From: Actinocatenispora thailandica
GTDB lineage: Bacteria; Actinomycetota; Actinomycetes; Mycobacteriales; Micromonosporaceae
Assembly (NCBI RefSeq): GCF_016865425.1
Contig: NZ_AP023355.1
Span: 558,001-622,000 of the forward strand
Length of the DNA: 64,000 nucleotides
Reading direction: 5' to 3'
The notes below the pieces were generated by a model that was not told the DNA's origin, ran no database searches, and was given only the letters and a program-made list of their open reading frames with translations. The position numbers were made by a program, and so were the translations under genes. Positions 15,186 to 49,232 of this stretch are shown here, piece after piece. Position 1 is the first letter of the stretch, and each line of letters opens with the position of its first letter.

Positions 15186-16661
15186 ATGTGTGCAGCGCAG
15201 CGCAAGGACGGTGGCCCGACGCACCCGGACGGACAGGTCGACCGGGTGGGGGCGCGGGACAGCGGGAGCAGTGAGGAGGACCTGTTCGCCACCTCGGTGA
15301 TGGTCCACCCGGCGCCGAAGGAGCAGTTCCCGACGTCCGAACGCGGACCTCGCCAGGTCTACCAGCTGATCCGGGACGAGCTGATGCTCGACGGCACGTC
15401 CCGGATGAACCTGGCGACGTTCTGCACCACCTGGCTGGAGCCCGAGGCCCGGTTGCTGATGACCGAGTCGATGGACAAGAACATCGTGGACAAGGACGAG
15501 TACCCGCAGACCGCCGAGCTGGAGCGGCGCTGCGTGCAGATGCTCGCCCACCTGTTCGGCGCGCCGGACCCGGCGCACGCCGCCGGTACGTCCACGGTCG
15601 GGTCCTCGGAGGCGGCGATGCTCTGCGGGCTGGCGGCGAAGTGGCGCTGGCGCAAGCGGCGTCAGGCCGCCGGGCAGGACCACTCGCGGCCGAACTTCGT
15701 CTGCGGCCCGGTCCAGGTCTGTTGGGAGAAGCTGGCCCGCTACTTCGACATCGAGATGCGCCAGGTGCCGATGCCGCCGGGGCACCTGATGACGCCCGAG
15801 GCGGCGGTGGAACAGTGCGACGAGAACACGATCATGGTGGTACCGACGTTCGGGCAGACGTTCACCGGCCTGTTCGAGGACGTCGCCGGGATCTCGGCCG
15901 CGCTGGACGACCTCCAGGCGCGTACCGGCCTGGACGTGCCGATCCACGTGGACGGGGCGAGCGGCGCGTTCGTCGCCGCGTTCTGCGCGCCGGACCTGCG
16001 CTGGGACTTCCGGCTGCCGCGGGTGAAGTCGATGAACGCCTCCGGGCACAAGACGGGGCTGGCGCCGGTCGGCAGCGGCTGGGCGCTCTGGCGCGAGGCG
16101 GCCGACCTGCCGCAGGAACTCGTCTTCAACGTCAACTACCTCGGTGGTGAGATGCCCACCGTCGGCCTGAACTTCTCCCGCCCCGGTGGCCAGGTCATCA
16201 CCTCGTACTTCAACTTCGTCCGGCTGGGCCGGTCCGGCTACACCAAGGTGCAGTCCGCCGCCTACGAGGTGGCCCGGCACGTGGCGGCCGGAGTCGAGCG
16301 GCTCGGTCTCTTCGACCTGGTGTACGACGGGGACCCGCACCGCGGCATCCCGGCGGTGACGTGGCGGCTGCCTCCGGGTGACCACCCGTTCGACCTGTTC
16401 GAGCTGGCCGACGAGCTGCGCACCCGCGGCTGGCTCGTCCCGGCGTACACGCTGCCGCCGGACCAGCAGGACGTGGCGGTCCAGCGGGTCGTGGTGCGGC
16501 ACGGTCTGTCGGTCGACATGGCCGACCTGCTGCTCGCCGACCTGGGGCGGGCGGTCGAGCGGCTGTCGCATCCGGGGCGGCCGACCGAACGGTCCGCGGC
16601 GGGCGCGAGCGGCTTCAACCACAGCGCCACCGCGGCGGTGCGCACCGCGGACCTGCGCTGA
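15186..16661 (+). CDS. gadB: Glutamate decarboxylase (PLP-dependent)
   Basis: Converts glutamate to GABA and CO2, consuming a proton. The 491-residue protein has the group II decarboxylase layout: PLP-contact regions (STVGSSEAAMLCGLA, VPTFGQTFTG, HVDGASGAF with Asp256) and the Schiff-base lysine K289 in ASGHKTGLAPVGSGW. The residue after HK is Thr where E. coli GadB has Phe. The C-terminus reads GFNHS, recalling the pH-sensitive C-terminal His of GadB. The N-terminal about 35 residues are polar and probably flexible. The ATG has GAGGAGG six bases upstream. No glutamate/GABA antiporter gene is adjacent, so acid resistance is not assured; GABA-shunt metabolism is an alternative. Confidence 0.94.
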   Translation: MCAAQRKDGGPTHPDGQVDRVGARDSGSSEEDLFATSVMVHPAPKEQFPTSERGPRQVYQLIRDELMLDGTSRMNLATFCTTWLEPEARLLMTESMDKNIVDKDEYPQTAELERRCVQMLAHLFGAPDPAHAAGTSTVGSSEAAMLCGLAAKWRWRKRRQAAGQDHSRPNFVCGPVQVCWEKLARYFDIEMRQVPMPPGHLMTPEAAVEQCDENTIMVVPTFGQTFTGLFEDVAGISAALDDLQARTGLDVPIHVDGASGAFVAAFCAPDLRWDFRLPRVKSMNASGHKTGLAPVGSGWALWREAADLPQELVFNVNYLGGEMPTVGLNFSRPGGQVITSYFNFVRLGRSGYTKVQSAAYEVARHVAAGVERLGLFDLVYDGDPHRGIPAVTWRLPPGDHPFDLFELADELRTRGWLVPAYTLPPDQQDVAVQRVVVRHGLSVDMADLLLADLGRAVERLSHPGRPTERSAAGASGFNHSATAAVRTADLR

Positions 16662-16824
16662 ACGGGGTTCCGGCGACGGTGGGGGTGCGGTGCGGTGGGT
16701 GCGGCGTGTTCGCGTACAAGAGTTGAAATGTTGACAAGCCGGACCAAAGGTTCGAAGCTCAACAATCGAATACTTCACCTTGTTTCCGATTAGCGGCTCC
16801 CTACGCCGCCGGAAGGAGTATCCG

Positions 16825-17721
16825 ATGCGCATCCCCCGACGCCGCGTCGTGCTGGCCGCCGCCATGCTGGGTACCGTGCTCGCCGCCGCGACCGCACCCG
16901 CCGCCGACGCCGCACCGGTACGGCCGCACACCACCACGTTCGCCGACGACTTCGACGGCGCCGCCGGCAGCGCACCGGACGGCAGCAAGTGGATCCACGA
17001 GATCGGCGACAACGGCGGCAACAACCACGAGCTGGAGTACTACACCGACTCGACGTCCAACGCCGCGCTGGACGGCAACGGCAACCTCGTCATCACCGCG
17101 CGCAGGGAGAACCCGGCCAACTACACCTGCTGGTACGGCAGCTGCCAGTACACCTCCGCCCGGCTCAACACGTCGCAGTCGTTCAGCCAGGCGTACGGGC
17201 ACTTCGAGGCGCGGATCAAGATCCCCGCCGGGCAGGGTATGTGGCCGGCGTTCTGGGCGCTCGGCGACAACATCGGCTCGGCCGGCTGGCCCGGCTGCGG
17301 CGAGCTGGACATCATGGAGAACGTCGGGTTCGAGCCCGGCACGGTGCACGGCACCATGCACGGCCCGGGGTACTCGGGTGCCGCCGGCCCCGGTGCCGCC
17401 TACTCGCTGCCGAACGGGCAGGCGTTCGCCGACGGCTTCCACACCTTCGCCATCGACTGGTCGCCGAACCAGGTCGTCTGGTCGGTCGACGGCAACGCGT
17501 ACGAGACCCGGACGCCGGCCGACACCAACGGCAACCCGTGGGTGTTCGACCACCCGTTCTTCCTGATTCTCAACCTCGCGGTCGGCGGCGACTGGCCGGG
17601 CAACCCGGACGGCAACACCGCGTTCCCGGCCCGGATGGTCGTCGACTACGTGCACGCCAGCTCCGCGGACAGTGCCGCCCAGCTCCGCGCCGCGCGGCAC
17701 GCGCAGCCGGATCGACACTGA
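16825..17721 (+). CDS. Secreted GH16 endo-beta-glucanase (laminarinase-like)
   Basis: A 298-residue secreted glycoside hydrolase of family 16. A basic start and hydrophobic stretch (RRRVVLAAAMLGTVLAAATA) end at a likely AxA cleavage site near residue 30. The catalytic motif ELDIMENVG contains the nucleophile Glu160, Asp162 and acid/base Glu165. Other family features are WPAFWALG, HGTMHGPGY and FHTFAIDWSP. The E-[ILV]-D-[IVAF]-x-E form with the extra Met is typical of beta-1,3-glucanases. There is no carbohydrate-binding module. The ATG has AAGGAG upstream. The 16,711-16,795 region is unusually AT-rich for this genome and contains a consensus -35 TTGACA (16731-16736), so a regulated promoter is likely. 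Confidence 0.93.
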   Translation: MRIPRRRVVLAAAMLGTVLAAATAPAADAAPVRPHTTTFADDFDGAAGSAPDGSKWIHEIGDNGGNNHELEYYTDSTSNAALDGNGNLVITARRENPANYTCWYGSCQYTSARLNTSQSFSQAYGHFEARIKIPAGQGMWPAFWALGDNIGSAGWPGCGELDIMENVGFEPGTVHGTMHGPGYSGAAGPGAAYSLPNGQAFADGFHTFAIDWSPNQVVWSVDGNAYETRTPADTNGNPWVFDHPFFLILNLAVGGDWPGNPDGNTAFPARMVVDYVHASSADSAAQLRAARHAQPDRH

Positions 17722-43631: not shown

Positions 43632-43641
43632 CGATGGGGTG

Positions 43642-45600
43642 GTGAACCGCCTTGCCGATGCGACGTCGCCCTACCTCCTGCAACACGCCGGGAACCCGGT
43701 GGACTGGTGGGAGTGGGGCGAGGCGGCGTTCGCCGAGGCGCGGCGACGGGACGTGCCGCTGCTGATCTCGGTCGGGTACGCGGCCTGCCACTGGTGTCAC
43801 GTGATGGCGCACGAGTCGTTCGAGGACCCGGCGGTCGCGGCCGTGGTGAACGACCACACCGTGCCGGTCAAGGTGGACCGGGAGGAGCGCCCGGACGTCG
43901 ACGCGGTGTACATGACCGCGACGCAGGCGATGACCGGGCAGGGCGGCTGGCCGATGACGGTGTTCGCCACCCCGGACGGCGCGCCGTTCTGGTGCGGCAC
44001 GTACCTGCCGAAGCGGCAGTTCGTCGGGTTGGTCCAGGCGGTCGCGGGGGTCTGGCGGGACCGGCGCGACGAGGCGGTCGGGCAGGGCGCGGCGGTGACC
44101 GCGGCGCTGCGCCGGGCCGCCGCGCCGGTGGGCCCCGGGACGGCGCTGACCGCCGACCATCTCGCCGCGGCCACCCGCGCCCTGGCCGGGCAGTACGACC
44201 AGATGAACGGCGGGTTCGGCACGGCACCGAAGTTCCCACCGTCGATGGTGCTGGAGTTCCTGATCCGGCAGCACGAGCGTACCGGCGACCCGGACGCGCT
44301 CGCGCTGGTGCGGCACACCTGCGCGGCGATGGCCCGCGGCGGCATGTACGACCAGCTCGCCGGCGGGTTCGCCCGCTACGCGGTGGACGCCACCTGGACG
44401 GTGCCGCACTTCGAGAAGATGCTGTACGACAACGCATTGCTGCTGCGCGCCTACACCCACCTGGGACGGCTGACCGGCGACGAGTCGACGCGACGGGTCG
44501 CCGCGCAGACCGTCGAGTTCCTGCTGCGCGACCTGCGCGCCGGCCCCGCCTTCGCGGCGTCGCTGGATGCCGACGCGGCCGGCGCGGAGGGCAGCACGTA
44601 CGTCTGGACGCCGGCGCAGCTGCGCGCCGTACTCGGTGACGCGGACGGCGCCTGGGCGGCTCGGACGTTCGCGGTGACCGACGCCGGCACGTTCGAGGGC
44701 GGCGCCAGCGTGCTCCAACTGCCGGCCGACCCGGACGACGCGGCGCGGTTCGCCGCGGTCCGCGACCGGCTGCTCGCGGCGCGCGGCGAGCGCCCGCAAC
44801 CGGCCCGGGACGACAAGGTCGTCGCCGCCTGGAACGGCCTCACCATCACCGCCCTGGTCGAGTACGCGAACCTGACCGGCGACGCGGCCGCCGGCGCGGC
44901 GGCCGTCGAGGCGGGGGAGTTCCTCGCCGACGTGCACCTGGTGGACGGCCGGCTGCGGCGCATCTCGCGGGACGGCCGGGTCGGCGCCCCCGCCGGCGTG
45001 CTCGACGACCACGGCGCGGTGGCGCAGGCGTTCTGCGCGCTGCACCAGCACACCGGCGACCCGCGCTGGCTGGCCCGCGCCGAGGCGCTGCTTTCGGTTG
45101 CCCGGCAACACTTCCGCACCGAGGACGGCTGGTACGACACGGCCGACGACGCGGAACGGTTGGTGAGCCGGCCGGCCGACCCGACCGACAACGCCACCCC
45201 GGCCGGGCTGTCCGCGATCGCCGAGGCGCTGCTGACCTACGCCGCGCTGACCGGCTCGGCGCCGCACCGGGACGACGCCGAGGCGGCCCTGTCGGTACTG
45301 GCGCCGATCGTCGCCGACCATCCGCGGTTCGCCGGGCACGCGCTGGCGGTGGCGGCGGCGGCGCTGACCGGGCCGTACCAGATCGCGGTGGTGGGTGGTG
45401 ACGCGCTGCGCGACGCGGCGTGGCGGGCGGCGCCGGCCGGGTCGGTTCTGGTCGCGGGGGAGCCGGACGCGCCGGGCGTGCCGCTGCTCGCCGATCGGGG
45501 GCTCGTCGACGGCGGCCCGGCCGCGTACGTGTGCCGGGGCTTCGTCTGCGACCGCCCGGCCCGTACCGCCGAGGAGCTGCAGGCCCAACTGTCCGGTTGA
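43642..45600 (+). CDS. DUF255 thioredoxin-domain protein (YyaL/SSP411-like)
   Basis: A 652-residue protein. The N-terminal about 160 residues are a thioredoxin-like DUF255 domain with the start [25 protein letters not shown] and the dithiol motif CHWCHVM (Cys49, Cys52). The rest is an (alpha/alpha)6-barrel resembling N-acylglucosamine 2-epimerases ([51 protein letters not shown]). Biochemical function is unknown. It is the Rv1084 equivalent in the conserved cluster. The GTG at 43642 has GACGAT at -12 to -7; GTG 43639 is an alternative. Confidence 0.92.
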
Positions 45601-45622: not shown

Positions 45623-45934
45623 TCAGGCCTGGCCGGTTTCGAAGCGACTGATCCGGCCGTCCGCGACGACGAAGTGCCACCGGGTGTTCATCGCGCCCCA
45701 GGTGGAGTTGGTGTAGCGGACGAGCAGATCGAGGCCGTCGTCGGACTCCGACTCGACCGCCATCTTCCCGTCGCTGCGGAAGATCTCCCGCTCGGTCCAG
45801 TCGTGCAGATCCCGGTCGGTGCCGTCGTCGGACATCGTCGCGTCGGCGGTGAGGGCCGCGGCGAGTGCGGCCCGGTCGCCGGCGTTGACCGCCGCGACGA
45901 ACCGCCGCACCTCCGGCCGTGCTGGCTCGATCAT
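45623..45934 (-). CDS. NTF2-like small protein
   Basis: A 103-residue protein of the NTF2/SnoaL-like fold (VRRFVAAVNAGDRAALAAALTADATMSDDG, ESDDGLDLLVRYTNSTWGAMNTRWHFVVADGRI). These small domains bind or convert small molecules; no catalytic residues can be assigned. The ATG at 45934 has GGAGAAGGGGGAG upstream. It is convergent with the DUF255 gene, 22 bases apart. Confidence 0.82.
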   Translation of the reverse strand: MIEPARPEVRRFVAAVNAGDRAALAAALTADATMSDDGTDRDLHDWTEREIFRSDGKMAVESESDDGLDLLVRYTNSTWGAMNTRWHFVVADGRISRFETGQA

Positions 45935-46162
45935 GGCTCCCCCTTCTCCGCGGCCGTGCTGCCGGCGACGGTGCCGCCGCGCGCCGGCCGCCGGCGCCGC
46001 GCGATCGTGCTGCCGGCCAGGTCCTGCCGCCGACCGCTGTCGTACCGGCGCCCGACCGGCGGCGGGTCCGGTCCGACCGTAGCCGCGCCGACACCGGTAC
46101 CGGGTGGATTCGCCGGCATGCGCCGGAGGGCGGCGGGAGGTGACGCCGGAGAAGGCCGTCCG

Positions 46163-46182
46163 TGATCACGTATGTACGATCA
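46163..46182. promoter_or_regulatory. Palindrome upstream of the AsnB-like/F420-ligase-like gene
   Basis: TGATCACGTATGTACGATCA carries arms TGAT/ATCA and CGTA/TACG around TG, slightly asymmetric (two extra bases on the left). It lies 31-50 bases upstream of the ATG at 46214, in a locally AT-rich stretch. A transcription-factor site is plausible. Confidence 0.4.
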
Positions 46183-46213: not shown

Positions 46214-48466
46214 ATGGCAGGACTTGCCGCATATTTCGGCATCAGCGGCCAGGCCGACGGTCAGGCACCCGGCGGTCCGGCACAAGGCGGTCCGGCACAA
46301 GACGGTCCGGCACAAGGCGGTCAGGTACCCGCCGGGCAGGCGCTCGACGACCTGGTCCGCGGCCTGGCGCCGCGCGGCGACGAGATCGCCGACTGGCACG
46401 ACGGCGGCGGCCAACTGGCGATGGCGGTACGGGCCGGGATCCCGCAGGTGCACCACGACCACCGCGGTGCCGCCGTCGTCGTGGACGGCGTCGCGGAGCC
46501 GTCCACGCTGCTCGCCCGGTACGCCGAGAGTGGCGCCGCGGCGGTGCTCGGCCAGCCGGCGACCGACCCGTACGCCGCGGTGCTCGCCGACCCGACGCGC
46601 GGCGTGCTCGTGCTGTGCCGGCACGGCGACGGGCCGCCGCTCTACTACGCCCGGCACCGCGGCGCGGTGCTCGTCGCCTCCGAGCCGGCGGCGCTGCTCG
46701 CGGCCGGGGTCCCGGCCGTGCCGGACGCGGAGACGGTCGGCCGGTTCCTCGGCACCGGCGACTGCGACCGCGACACGCGCACCTTCCTCGCCGGGGTGCG
46801 GCGGCTGCTGCCGGCGCAGGTCCTGGAGGTGGGCGCGCACGGCGTCCGGCCGGTCACGCACGCGGCCGGTGCGCCGGTCACGCCGCCGCTGCCGGTCGGC
46901 GCCGGAGCGCGCCTCGGCGTACGGCTGGACGGTGCGATGACCGGGGTGGCGCTGCTCGGCCTGGCCCGCACCGACCCGGCGCCGCCCACCGACCCGGACG
47001 TACTGCCGGTGTACCGCGCCGTGCTGCCGGGCACGGCGCCGCCCGCCGCGGTGGCCGCGGCCGACCTGCGGGACGAACCGGTACCGGTGACGGTCGCCGA
47101 CGTCGACGACCTGCTCCTCGGGCTGGGCGAGCCGGTACCGGATCCGGACGTGCTGGCCGCCTGGGTGGTGGCCCGCCGTGCCGCCGGTGAGGTGGACGCG
47201 CTCCTCGACCCGCTCGGCGGTACCGCGCTGCTCGCCGACACCACCGCGCCCGGCTACCTGACCCGGGTCGCGGATCGCGTCACGACCCGGTTCGGGGTGG
47301 CGCTGCAGATGCCGTACCGGCGGGTGGCCGGCACCGGGGCGGCCCGCGAACTGCTCGCCCGGTGCCGTCGCGGGCTGCCCGCCGGGGCGGTACCGGCGGC
47401 GGAGCCGGCGCCGGTGGACCCGACGCTGAGCGTGCTCCGCGCGCTGCGGCCCGACGTGTACGCGACGTTCCTGTCCGCCTCGTTCACCGGCCGGCCGGGG
47501 CACGACGCGCGGGCGGTCGTCGCCGGTTTCGGTGACCTGCTCGCCGGACGCCGCACCGATGCCGGCCGGTTCTGGCGCGCGTTCCTGCTGGAGCGGTGGC
47601 TGCGGCTGATCGAGTCCGGCGCCGCCAGCCGGCCCGCCGACGCGCCGCCGGAACAACCGTCCACGACCACGGTGGACGGTGCCCGGTGGCTGCGGCTGCC
47701 GGTCGCGACCCGGACGCTGCGCGCCGGCGACGCCTACGCCGACTCGATCGCCTGGTACGTCACCGAGCGGGTGCGCGCCGCCTGCGCCGACGACCGGTAC
47801 CGGCGCCGGTTCGGCCGCTGCTGGTACCTGGTGGTGGCGGCCCGGCCGCTCGCGGTCACGCAGGGCCGGGTGCGACCGCTGTGGGAGCTGCGTCCCGGCT
47901 GGTGGGCGCGGCGGATGTCCGAGTTCGTCCGGGACCGGTCCTGGCAGGGCCTCGGCAACCCGTGGACGATGCAGACCGCGATCGACGAGGCGGGGCTGCG
48001 CCGCGTGCTGTTCGCCGCCGCGGCGGGCGCCGGCGGGCGGCTGCTGCACCGGCACGGCATGTTCGACCGGATCGCCGGGGAGCCGGTCCGGCAGGTCCGC
48101 GGTCCGGTCGAGCGGGCCACCTTCCCGGCGAACGTGGCGGTCGCCGCGGCACCGACCGACCCCGAGGCCGCCGCCGCCGACCTGCTCGCCGCGGTACGGG
48201 CGGGGCTGCGCGACGACGCCGCCGCGGGCATCGCCGGCTGCGCGGTCGTCGGTACCGACCGGGTCGCCGGCGGCTGCCAGGTGCTCGCCTGCGTCGGTGA
48301 CCGTCCGGCCGGCTTCTATGCCGCGGCGTGCGCGGACGACCCGCTCGGCCGCCTCGCCGGTACCCCGGCCGCGGTGGTGCTGCTCGCGCCGCCGGAGACG
48401 GCCACCGGCGCCCCGCGACCCCGCCGTTCCGGGTCCCGGGACGCGCGCCGCGCCGCCGCACGCTGA
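46214..48466 (+). CDS. Degenerate asparagine synthase-like protein fused to an F420-0:glutamate ligase-like domain
   Basis: A 750-residue two-part protein. Residues 1-210 have the glutamine amidotransferase (Ntn) pattern of AsnB (VLVLCRHGDGPPLYYARH, VLVASEPAALLAAG, FLAGVRRLLPAQVLEV), but the catalytic Cys after Met is replaced by Ala (MAGLAAYFG). Residues 230-460 fit the synthetase half, yet the PP-loop SGGxDS is lost (GVRLDGAMTG). Residues about 490-700 resemble the bacterial F420-0:gamma-glutamyl ligase-like (CofE-like) family: PLAVTQGRVRPLWELRPGW, GLGNPWTMQTAIDEAGL, GMFDRIAGEPV. A Gly/Pro/Gln repeat lies at residues 18-40. Canonical Asn synthesis is unlikely; a glutamyl or amide ligase role is inferred. 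GGAGA precedes the ATG. Confidence 0.75.
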   Translation: MAGLAAYFGISGQADGQAPGGPAQGGPAQDGPAQGGQVPAGQALDDLVRGLAPRGDEIADWHDGGGQLAMAVRAGIPQVHHDHRGAAVVVDGVAEPSTLLARYAESGAAAVLGQPATDPYAAVLADPTRGVLVLCRHGDGPPLYYARHRGAVLVASEPAALLAAGVPAVPDAETVGRFLGTGDCDRDTRTFLAGVRRLLPAQVLEVGAHGVRPVTHAAGAPVTPPLPVGAGARLGVRLDGAMTGVALLGLARTDPAPPTDPDVLPVYRAVLPGTAPPAAVAAADLRDEPVPVTVADVDDLLLGLGEPVPDPDVLAAWVVARRAAGEVDALLDPLGGTALLADTTAPGYLTRVADRVTTRFGVALQMPYRRVAGTGAARELLARCRRGLPAGAVPAAEPAPVDPTLSVLRALRPDVYATFLSASFTGRPGHDARAVVAGFGDLLAGRRTDAGRFWRAFLLERWLRLIESGAASRPADAPPEQPSTTTVDGARWLRLPVATRTLRAGDAYADSIAWYVTERVRAACADDRYRRRFGRCWYLVVAARPLAVTQGRVRPLWELRPGWWARRMSEFVRDRSWQGLGNPWTMQTAIDEAGLRRVLFAAAAGAGGRLLHRHGMFDRIAGEPVRQVRGPVERATFPANVAVAAAPTDPEAAAADLLAAVRAGLRDDAAAGIAGCAVVGTDRVAGGCQVLACVGDRPAGFYAAACADDPLGRLAGTPAAVVLLAPPETATGAPRPRRSGSRDARRAAAR
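46271..46330 (+). repeat. 15-bp in-frame tandem repeat (4 copies)
   Basis: GGCGGTCCGGCACAA recurs at 46271, 46286 and 46301 (one change), with a diverged fourth unit at 46316. It encodes GGPAQ/DGPAQ repeats in the N-terminal loop of the AsnB-like protein. It probably varies in copy number and is unlikely to be structural. Confidence 0.85.
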
Positions 48467-48635: not shown

Positions 48636-49232
48636 ATGCGAGGAGAAGGAACCTGGCCGCCACACCGGGGCTGGGGACGAGGTCGCGGCGGCGCGCAACC
48701 CGAGCCGCCATCCGCCGCCGACGCGGCCGGGTGGATCCGCGGGCGGCTGCCCGACGACTGGTTCGTCGAGCCGCCGACCATCACCGTCGACCGCGAGGAG
48801 ATCCTGATCGTCGGCGCCATCCCGCCGCCCGAGCCGTCCGGCGACGCGGCCGGCGAGGGCACCGAGGCGGAGCGGGCCGCCGCCGAGCAGGGCCGGATCG
48901 CCCGGTTCCGGGAGCAGACCCGGGACGAGCGGATCGGCATCGCGCAGCAGATCGAGCACCGCTACCGGCGGCACGCCAGCTGGGGCGCCACCTGCGGGGA
49001 GACCCGCGAGCTGTTCACCACCCAGTCGGTGCCGGTGATGACCCGGCTGCGGCAGCCGCAGCGCGTGGTGCTCGACACCCTGGTCGACGCCGGCGTCGCC
49101 AGGTCCCGCTCGGAGGCGCTGGCCTGGTGCGTCCGGCTGGTCGGCGAGCACGCCGAGGACTGGCTCGACGAGCTGCGCGGCGCCATGTCCACCGTCGAGG
49201 ACCTCCGTCGCAAGGGCCCGGACCTGGGCTGA
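48636..49232 (+). CDS. Conserved hypothetical protein with RHH-like C-terminal region
   Basis: A 198-residue cytoplasmic protein, not recognised. The N-terminal 30 residues are Gly/Arg/Pro-rich. The middle (AADAAGWIRGRLPDDWFVEPPTITVDREEILIVGAI) looks folded, and a charged helix follows (TEAERAAAEQGRIARFREQTRDERIGIAQQIEHRY). The end (RVVLDTLVDAGVARSRSEALAWCVRLVGEHAEDWLDEL) resembles a ribbon-helix-helix or small helical dimer with the pattern ARSRSEALAW. The ATG has GGGAGGAACG directly upstream, a strong site. An AT-rich stretch (48,585-48,620) precedes it. DNA binding is possible but unproven. Confidence 0.75.
   Translation: MRGEGTWPPHRGWGRGRGGAQPEPPSAADAAGWIRGRLPDDWFVEPPTITVDREEILIVGAIPPPEPSGDAAGEGTEAERAAAEQGRIARFREQTRDERIGIAQQIEHRYRRHASWGATCGETRELFTTQSVPVMTRLRQPQRVVLDTLVDAGVARSRSEALAWCVRLVGEHAEDWLDELRGAMSTVEDLRRKGPDLG

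Follow-up and report, generated by a model that had tools for sequence, protein, structure and literature searches.

We describe a gene at positions 46214..48466 (plus strand) of the window, the 64,000-nucleotide stretch of Actinocatenispora thailandica DNA that was analysed, which comes from a genome of a single 7.43-Mb contig. The open reading frame starts with ATG and encodes 750 amino acids, in which an asparagine synthetase B (AsnB)-like half precedes a CofE-like domain. Comparison of neighbourhoods identifies the gene for a YyaL-type protein (43639..45600, plus strand; Thioredox_DsbH, CHWC motif) as its conserved upstream neighbour, and an AbmR family gene (48636..49232, plus strand; NF058631, ATP-binding transcription factor, 261 bits) follows it downstream, as in part of the loci compared, and belongs to the same conserved block. 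A small SnoaL-like ORF on the minus strand (45623..45934) lies between YyaL and the fusion gene in the window and in loci L032 and L033, and L034 has just an 82-nt gap at this place. The palindrome CGTGATCACG (46161-46170), to which the first-pass annotation had drawn attention, is real; none of three congeners used for comparison has it, which makes it probably a chance occurrence, and a role for it was rejected.

The N-terminal part (residues 1-207, 46214..46834, plus strand) is a remnant of a GATase_7-like glutamine amidotransferase domain that begins MAGLA instead of MCG, and codon 2 (46217..46219) thus specifies Ala at the site of the nucleophile Cys in intact relatives. A 15-nt tandem repeat near the N-terminus (46241-46360) encodes a linker of GGPAQ-like units, and is absent from L033 and L034. 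The synthetase-domain remnant (46901..47623, plus strand) is shortened, with about 100 residues gone, relative to intact relatives, between its retained elements GEPV and ADR..R.GV...P, and carries LDGAMTG (46925..46945) at the position of the ATP PP-motif. In the C-terminal CofE-like domain (residues 492-728, 47687..48397, plus strand), Arg629 (QVRGP, 48098..48100) replaces the conserved Asp of AIDGP, and Gly680 (AVVGTD, 48251..48253) replaces the conserved Asp of IDANDIG, where an Asp two residues further could be a shifted equivalent in the gapped alignment.

Searched alone, the window protein scores 15.8 bits against GATase_7 (E 0.015; cut-off 25 bits) and 24.4 bits against TIGR01536 (E 1.3e-5; curated cut-off 267.1), and its C-terminal third has no family match in Pfam and curated profile searches. 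A PDB search with the protein alone matched nothing meaningful, and phage families matched only at E 0.083 and 0.34.

Relatives and homology of the two halves

Matches were found in 25 of 61 relative genomes (as we read the matches, 20 of them have the fusion or at least its C-terminal domain, and the other 5 match weakly and through ordinary AsnB-type proteins only), in 25 of 396 genomes of a phylum-wide sample and in 13 of 298 genomes of the order, and a family-wide search covered 354 genomes. We read 19 loci around matches in the relatives, 18 from the phylum-wide sample, 20 from the family-wide search and others from the order, and compared 74 proteins for a motif table and tree. The counts leave out duplicate loci, L079 (a partial locus), L089, the pair L160 and L162 (neither yielded a C-terminal domain), matches in 6 of the 25 phylum-sample genomes, and family-search matches such as G646, G570 and G571.

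The fusions fall into three states: class I with the motifs of both halves intact, class II with a dead AsnB half and an intact CofE-like site, and class III with both lost. Class I (16 rows; L049, of 946 aa, is an example) carries MCG, HRGPD, [YF]NGE, SGG[LIV]DSS, A[IV]DGP and IDANDxG in all 15 rows that include the N-terminus, and both CofE-like Asp in 16/16; the intact fusions L048 and L049 match Asn_synthase at E 9.6e-64 and 2.1e-61, and GATase_7 at E 2.6e-43 and 7.1e-44. Class II (9 rows, from three other families of the order) retains Cys2 in 0/9 and SGGxDS in 0/9, and both CofE-like Asp in 9/9. Class III comprises 33 proteins, spread over 14 genera within a single family and including the window protein, with Cys2 in 0/33 (codon 2 is Ala in 28), SGGxDS in 0/33, the first CofE-like Asp in 0/33 (6 gaps) and the second in 0/33 (1 gap); the Lys of the SEK motif is retained in 23/33. 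Both Asp are present in 15/15 CofE-like domains that stand alone, lie behind other N-terminal regions or are truncated. Such other regions precede the domain in L088, L090 and L092, that of L088 matching TPR models. The first-pass annotation had proposed a survey for the same fusion and for split versions, and both exist: the former in all three classes, the latter in L082, where an AsnB gene adjoins a CofE-like gene.

L182 (7321-9996), at a different locus, has Cys2 changed to Gly, YNGE to CDGA and SGGLDSS to SGSLGSS, with its CofE-like site intact, and exceeds the asparagine-synthase cut-off (318.4 versus 267.1 bits) without Cys2 and the PP-motif. A reading of G745 as a genome that holds both an intact and a dead fusion was rejected: an in-frame TAG interrupts its class-I-type copy, of which only the downstream frame (L152) was counted. 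G745 also carries a class III copy (L154), cut at a contig end.

By the listing of the family-wide search, class III occurs in 37 of 354 genomes and 15 of 44 genera of the family; four of these 37 genomes are outside the 33 rows, one of them (G769) with a fragment at a contig end. Since just 37 of 354 genomes have it, the class III gene is dispensable. Class I or its CofE-like relative occurs in 16 of the 354, G745 belonging to both groups. A plasmid search with an intact fusion matched 489 records, none covering 80 percent of the query, and the ten matches listed are AsnB or N-acetylglutaminylglutamine amidotransferase. No published description of an AsnB-CofE-like fusion was found in the part of the literature that was searched, which does not prove that none is in print.

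Profile-profile alignment of class III N-terminal halves with the AsnB half of intact fusions (hhalign probability 99.9, E 5.4e-32, profile columns 8-465) places LDGAMTG opposite LSGGLDS, which confirms the earlier proposal that the PP-loop is replaced, and indicates that the N-terminal half of the window protein shares descent with AsnB (TIGR01536, PF00733, PF13537). The two parts of that half stand in the same order as in AsnB. The window protein differs from AsnB in lacking Cys2 and SGGxDS, in its shortened synthetase part and sub-cut-off TIGR01536 score, and in its additional C-terminal domain; with both motifs gone, ordinary Asn synthesis is not expected, as the first-pass annotation had supposed from the Ala in place of the catalytic Cys and the replaced PP-loop. 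Lasso peptide cyclases and beta-lactam synthetase are likewise AsnB-derived enzymes that have given up the glutaminase Cys; they retain the ATP site and are catalytic, whereas the window protein has also lost the ATP motif and has a CofE-like domain attached. NF033535 matches relatives of the window protein under its cut-off.

The CofE-like assignment made earlier for the C-terminal third holds through relatives. An alignment of 19 rows of the C-terminal family (A5) finds CofE among solved structures (PDB 2g9i/7uld/2phn) at E 2.7e-7, with E 0.0004 for the best single stretch, and matches the FbiB N-terminal domain at probability 95.9 and E 5.7e-9; a narrower alignment (A2) found no PDB match and gave a probability of only 14.7. 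A placement outside the CofE-like family, which would have spoken against the assignment, was not found, although the branch is divergent: nine of 10 relatives match Pfam F420_ligase (PF01996) at 11.6-23.0 bits (cut-off 25) and one has no match; TIGR01916 gives partial matches, far under its cut-off. Because A5 matches CofE where A2 fails, and because the F420_ligase scores are sub-cut-off, these profiles put the domain on a divergent branch within the CofE superfamily, apart from CofE itself. It shares with CofE and the FbiB N-terminal domain a GDD...vvSEKi...QGR element and a P.DP motif, and, in classes I and II, both conserved Asp, which we take to be the metal-binding residues of CofE; it differs in its sub-cut-off scores, in a shorter C-terminal part and, in the window copy, in the loss of both Asp. 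The suggestion of a new ligase is therefore unsupported for the window copy, its CofE-like half having also lost the two Asp that class I, class II and the stand-alone domains retain.

FbiB is encoded separately in the window's genome, which has elsewhere one TIGR01916 match (FbiB) and one Pfam Asn_synthase match, neither near the fusion gene. As TIGR01916 exceeds its cut-off in 21/21 genomes searched, the window's own included and with or without the fusion, F420 biosynthesis was rejected as a default role. CofE-family proteins can serve an acceptor other than F420: in E. coli, CT611, the CofE homologue of Chlamydia, is reported to stand in for the folate enzyme FolC (PMC1971073). CT611 is active in that complementation, whereas the conserved Asp are missing from the window copy.

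Neighbourhood and order of loss

YyaL is the nearest upstream conserved gene, on the same strand, in 28 of 31 class II and III loci longer than 8 kb; it lies 7.8 kb off in L043, and no YyaL is seen in L044 and L180, which retain other parts of the block. Downstream of class II and III genes are AbmR, PEPCK, UppS and PhoH, or PurK-PurE. The description of the gene as standing alone is apt for the window, because the minus-strand SnoaL-like ORF parts it from YyaL. Neither YyaL nor the other block genes occur in any of the 15 class I loci of more than 8 kb, and no conserved partner of the intact form was recognised among class I neighbourhoods, which differ from one another. YyaL occurs in 53 of the 61 relative genomes, many without the fusion, and was not found in G059, which has a class II gene, so the pair is not obligate. 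Among 19 same-family relatives with YyaL and without any form of the fusion, ten genomes were picked for inspection of the empty site: in 10/10, YyaL is followed by PurK-PurE, with AbmR between them in one and an 84-aa ORF (minus/plus-strand) in one, and no gene remnant was detected at these ten sites at E 1e-3.

Around intact and stand-alone forms, in L077 (3856-12967) the intact fusion adjoins a Pup ligase family gene and DUF3866 and PafC/WYL-type genes, the split pair of L082 is set within SepF-ProC-YggT-DivIVA, and the stand-alone CofE-like domain of L081 adjoins a sigma factor and PAC2. L049 has two tandem paralogous small ORFs (16492-17081; 65 and 67 aa, MKKITRLADSVLERLV...TECR) with the look of precursor peptides.

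In a tree of the C-terminal domain, drawn with a midpoint root and with long class III branches, class III forms one clade (support 100/100), and a split with support 100/98 sets classes II and III together apart from all rows of class I, of stand-alone domains and of L182; class II does not resolve into a single clade. Because class III is one clade and II and III are split from the rest, the branching of these sequences places the death of the AsnB half first and the loss of the CofE-like site second, given any root outside II and III. L182 groups with class I (94/71), and its AsnB loss therefore looks like a separate event; the inactivation is apparently recent.

Selection and a probable non-catalytic role

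Rates were calculated with our own script by Nei-Gojobori counting. Class III gives dN/dS of 0.12-0.39 (20 pairs from four groups, of which two belong to g16 and a third to g31, the fourth being a pair of two genera), class II 0.17-0.22 (6 pairs) and class I 0.19-0.24 (10 pairs). Within Actinocatenispora the fusion gene gives 0.20-0.47, alongside control values of 0.19-0.28 for YyaL, 0.12-0.33 for AbmR and 0.06-0.15 for UppS. The window protein is 85% identical to its Actinocatenispora comari homologue, with dN/dS of 0.22 overall and 0.13 in the C-terminal domain; against the distant congener L034 the values are 0.42 overall, 0.51 in the middle region and 0.36 in the C-terminal domain, and further comparisons that involve L034 give up to 0.47 overall and up to 0.68 for the middle region, which is under weaker constraint in these pairs. 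Twenty-nine residues are identical in 33/33 class III rows, among them Cys184 (46763..46765, plus strand), which is present in 2/9 of class II.

We place a probability of about 0.55 on reading the class III protein as a double pseudoenzyme that has become fixed and is predicted to act, without catalysis, as a partner or regulator together with its conserved neighbours. The features expected of a pseudoenzyme are found here, namely lost catalytic residues in both halves, a kept reading frame, purifying selection (dN/dS below 1) and intact homologues, and the regulatory pseudo-enzyme entertained in the first-pass annotation is accordingly plausible, its inactivity being predicted. The ancestor would have been a two-part amide-forming enzyme, with a glutamine-dependent AsnB half and a CofE-like half that was probably a nucleotide-dependent glutamyl (or amino-acid) ligase, judging from homology. 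CofE itself uses GTP to activate a carboxylate and attaches glutamate (PMC10861534, PMC8498797). In the lineage with the gene behind YyaL, the AsnB half lost its glutaminase and ATP-site residues with the CofE-like site intact (class II), and in the window's family the CofE-like site was lost afterwards (class III). The present function would be binding and not chemistry, with the remnants of both halves forming a putative scaffold for a ligand or a protein; the conserved neighbourhood suggests YyaL as the first candidate partner, then AbmR.

The gene might instead be a relic in slow decay, its catalytic role lost and its absences representing later stages, which we consider unlikely. Its absence from most family genomes, the empty YyaL-PurK sites in 10/10 inspected genomes, the less constrained middle region against L034 and the shortened members L039, L046, L144 and L159 (open frames of 649, 628, 638 and 555 codons) are what such a relic would leave; against it, the class III dN/dS range overlaps that of intact class I, the 29 invariant residues persist, and the empty sites hold no detectable remnant. 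Intact class I relatives do exist, which the first-pass annotation would have taken as a sign that this copy is just decayed; that does not follow, because the dead form makes up a well-supported clade, keeps to a single syntenic position and shows dN/dS below 1. With selection, conserved residues, clade structure and the usual place behind YyaL taken together, the class III gene is not simply decaying, and simple decay is not preferred as the full explanation and is kept as a rival.

Still less probable is a repurposed enzyme, in which one of the ancestral folds of class III would have gained a new active site with different chemistry. Residues fixed or almost fixed in class III and not in class II, such as Cys184 and Asp91 (32/33, versus 3/9 in class II), and the conserved GEP and ADR..R elements are compatible with this, but the nucleophile, the PP-motif and the conserved Asp of the parent families are all absent, and no other catalytic family was matched in profile searches. 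A regulator of nitrogen or amide metabolism whose partner would be the canonical AsnB or FbiB, each encoded at a different place, would draw on homology to both and on the single Asn_synthase and TIGR01916 matches of the genome, and is improbable given that neither gene is near the fusion and that FbiB is present regardless of it in the genomes searched. A long shot that builds on the double-pseudoenzyme reading is that the intact fusions are an undescribed bifunctional enzyme making some metabolite, its CofE-like half adding an amino acid and its AsnB half amidating, and that class III is a repurposed non-catalytic sensor that may still bind that metabolite, under redox control by YyaL via Cys184.

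For annotation, L182 is a trap, being a protein that passes a curated asparagine-synthase cut-off without Cys2 and the PP-motif. The family also brings to light an intact AsnB-CofE-like enzyme that has yet to be characterised. It provides a series made by nature, along which a protein of two fused enzymes gives up one active site and then the other, with the gene in place and under selection. Because a single order contains the intact, the half-dead and the fully dead form, the family is a test case for the origin of pseudoenzymes.
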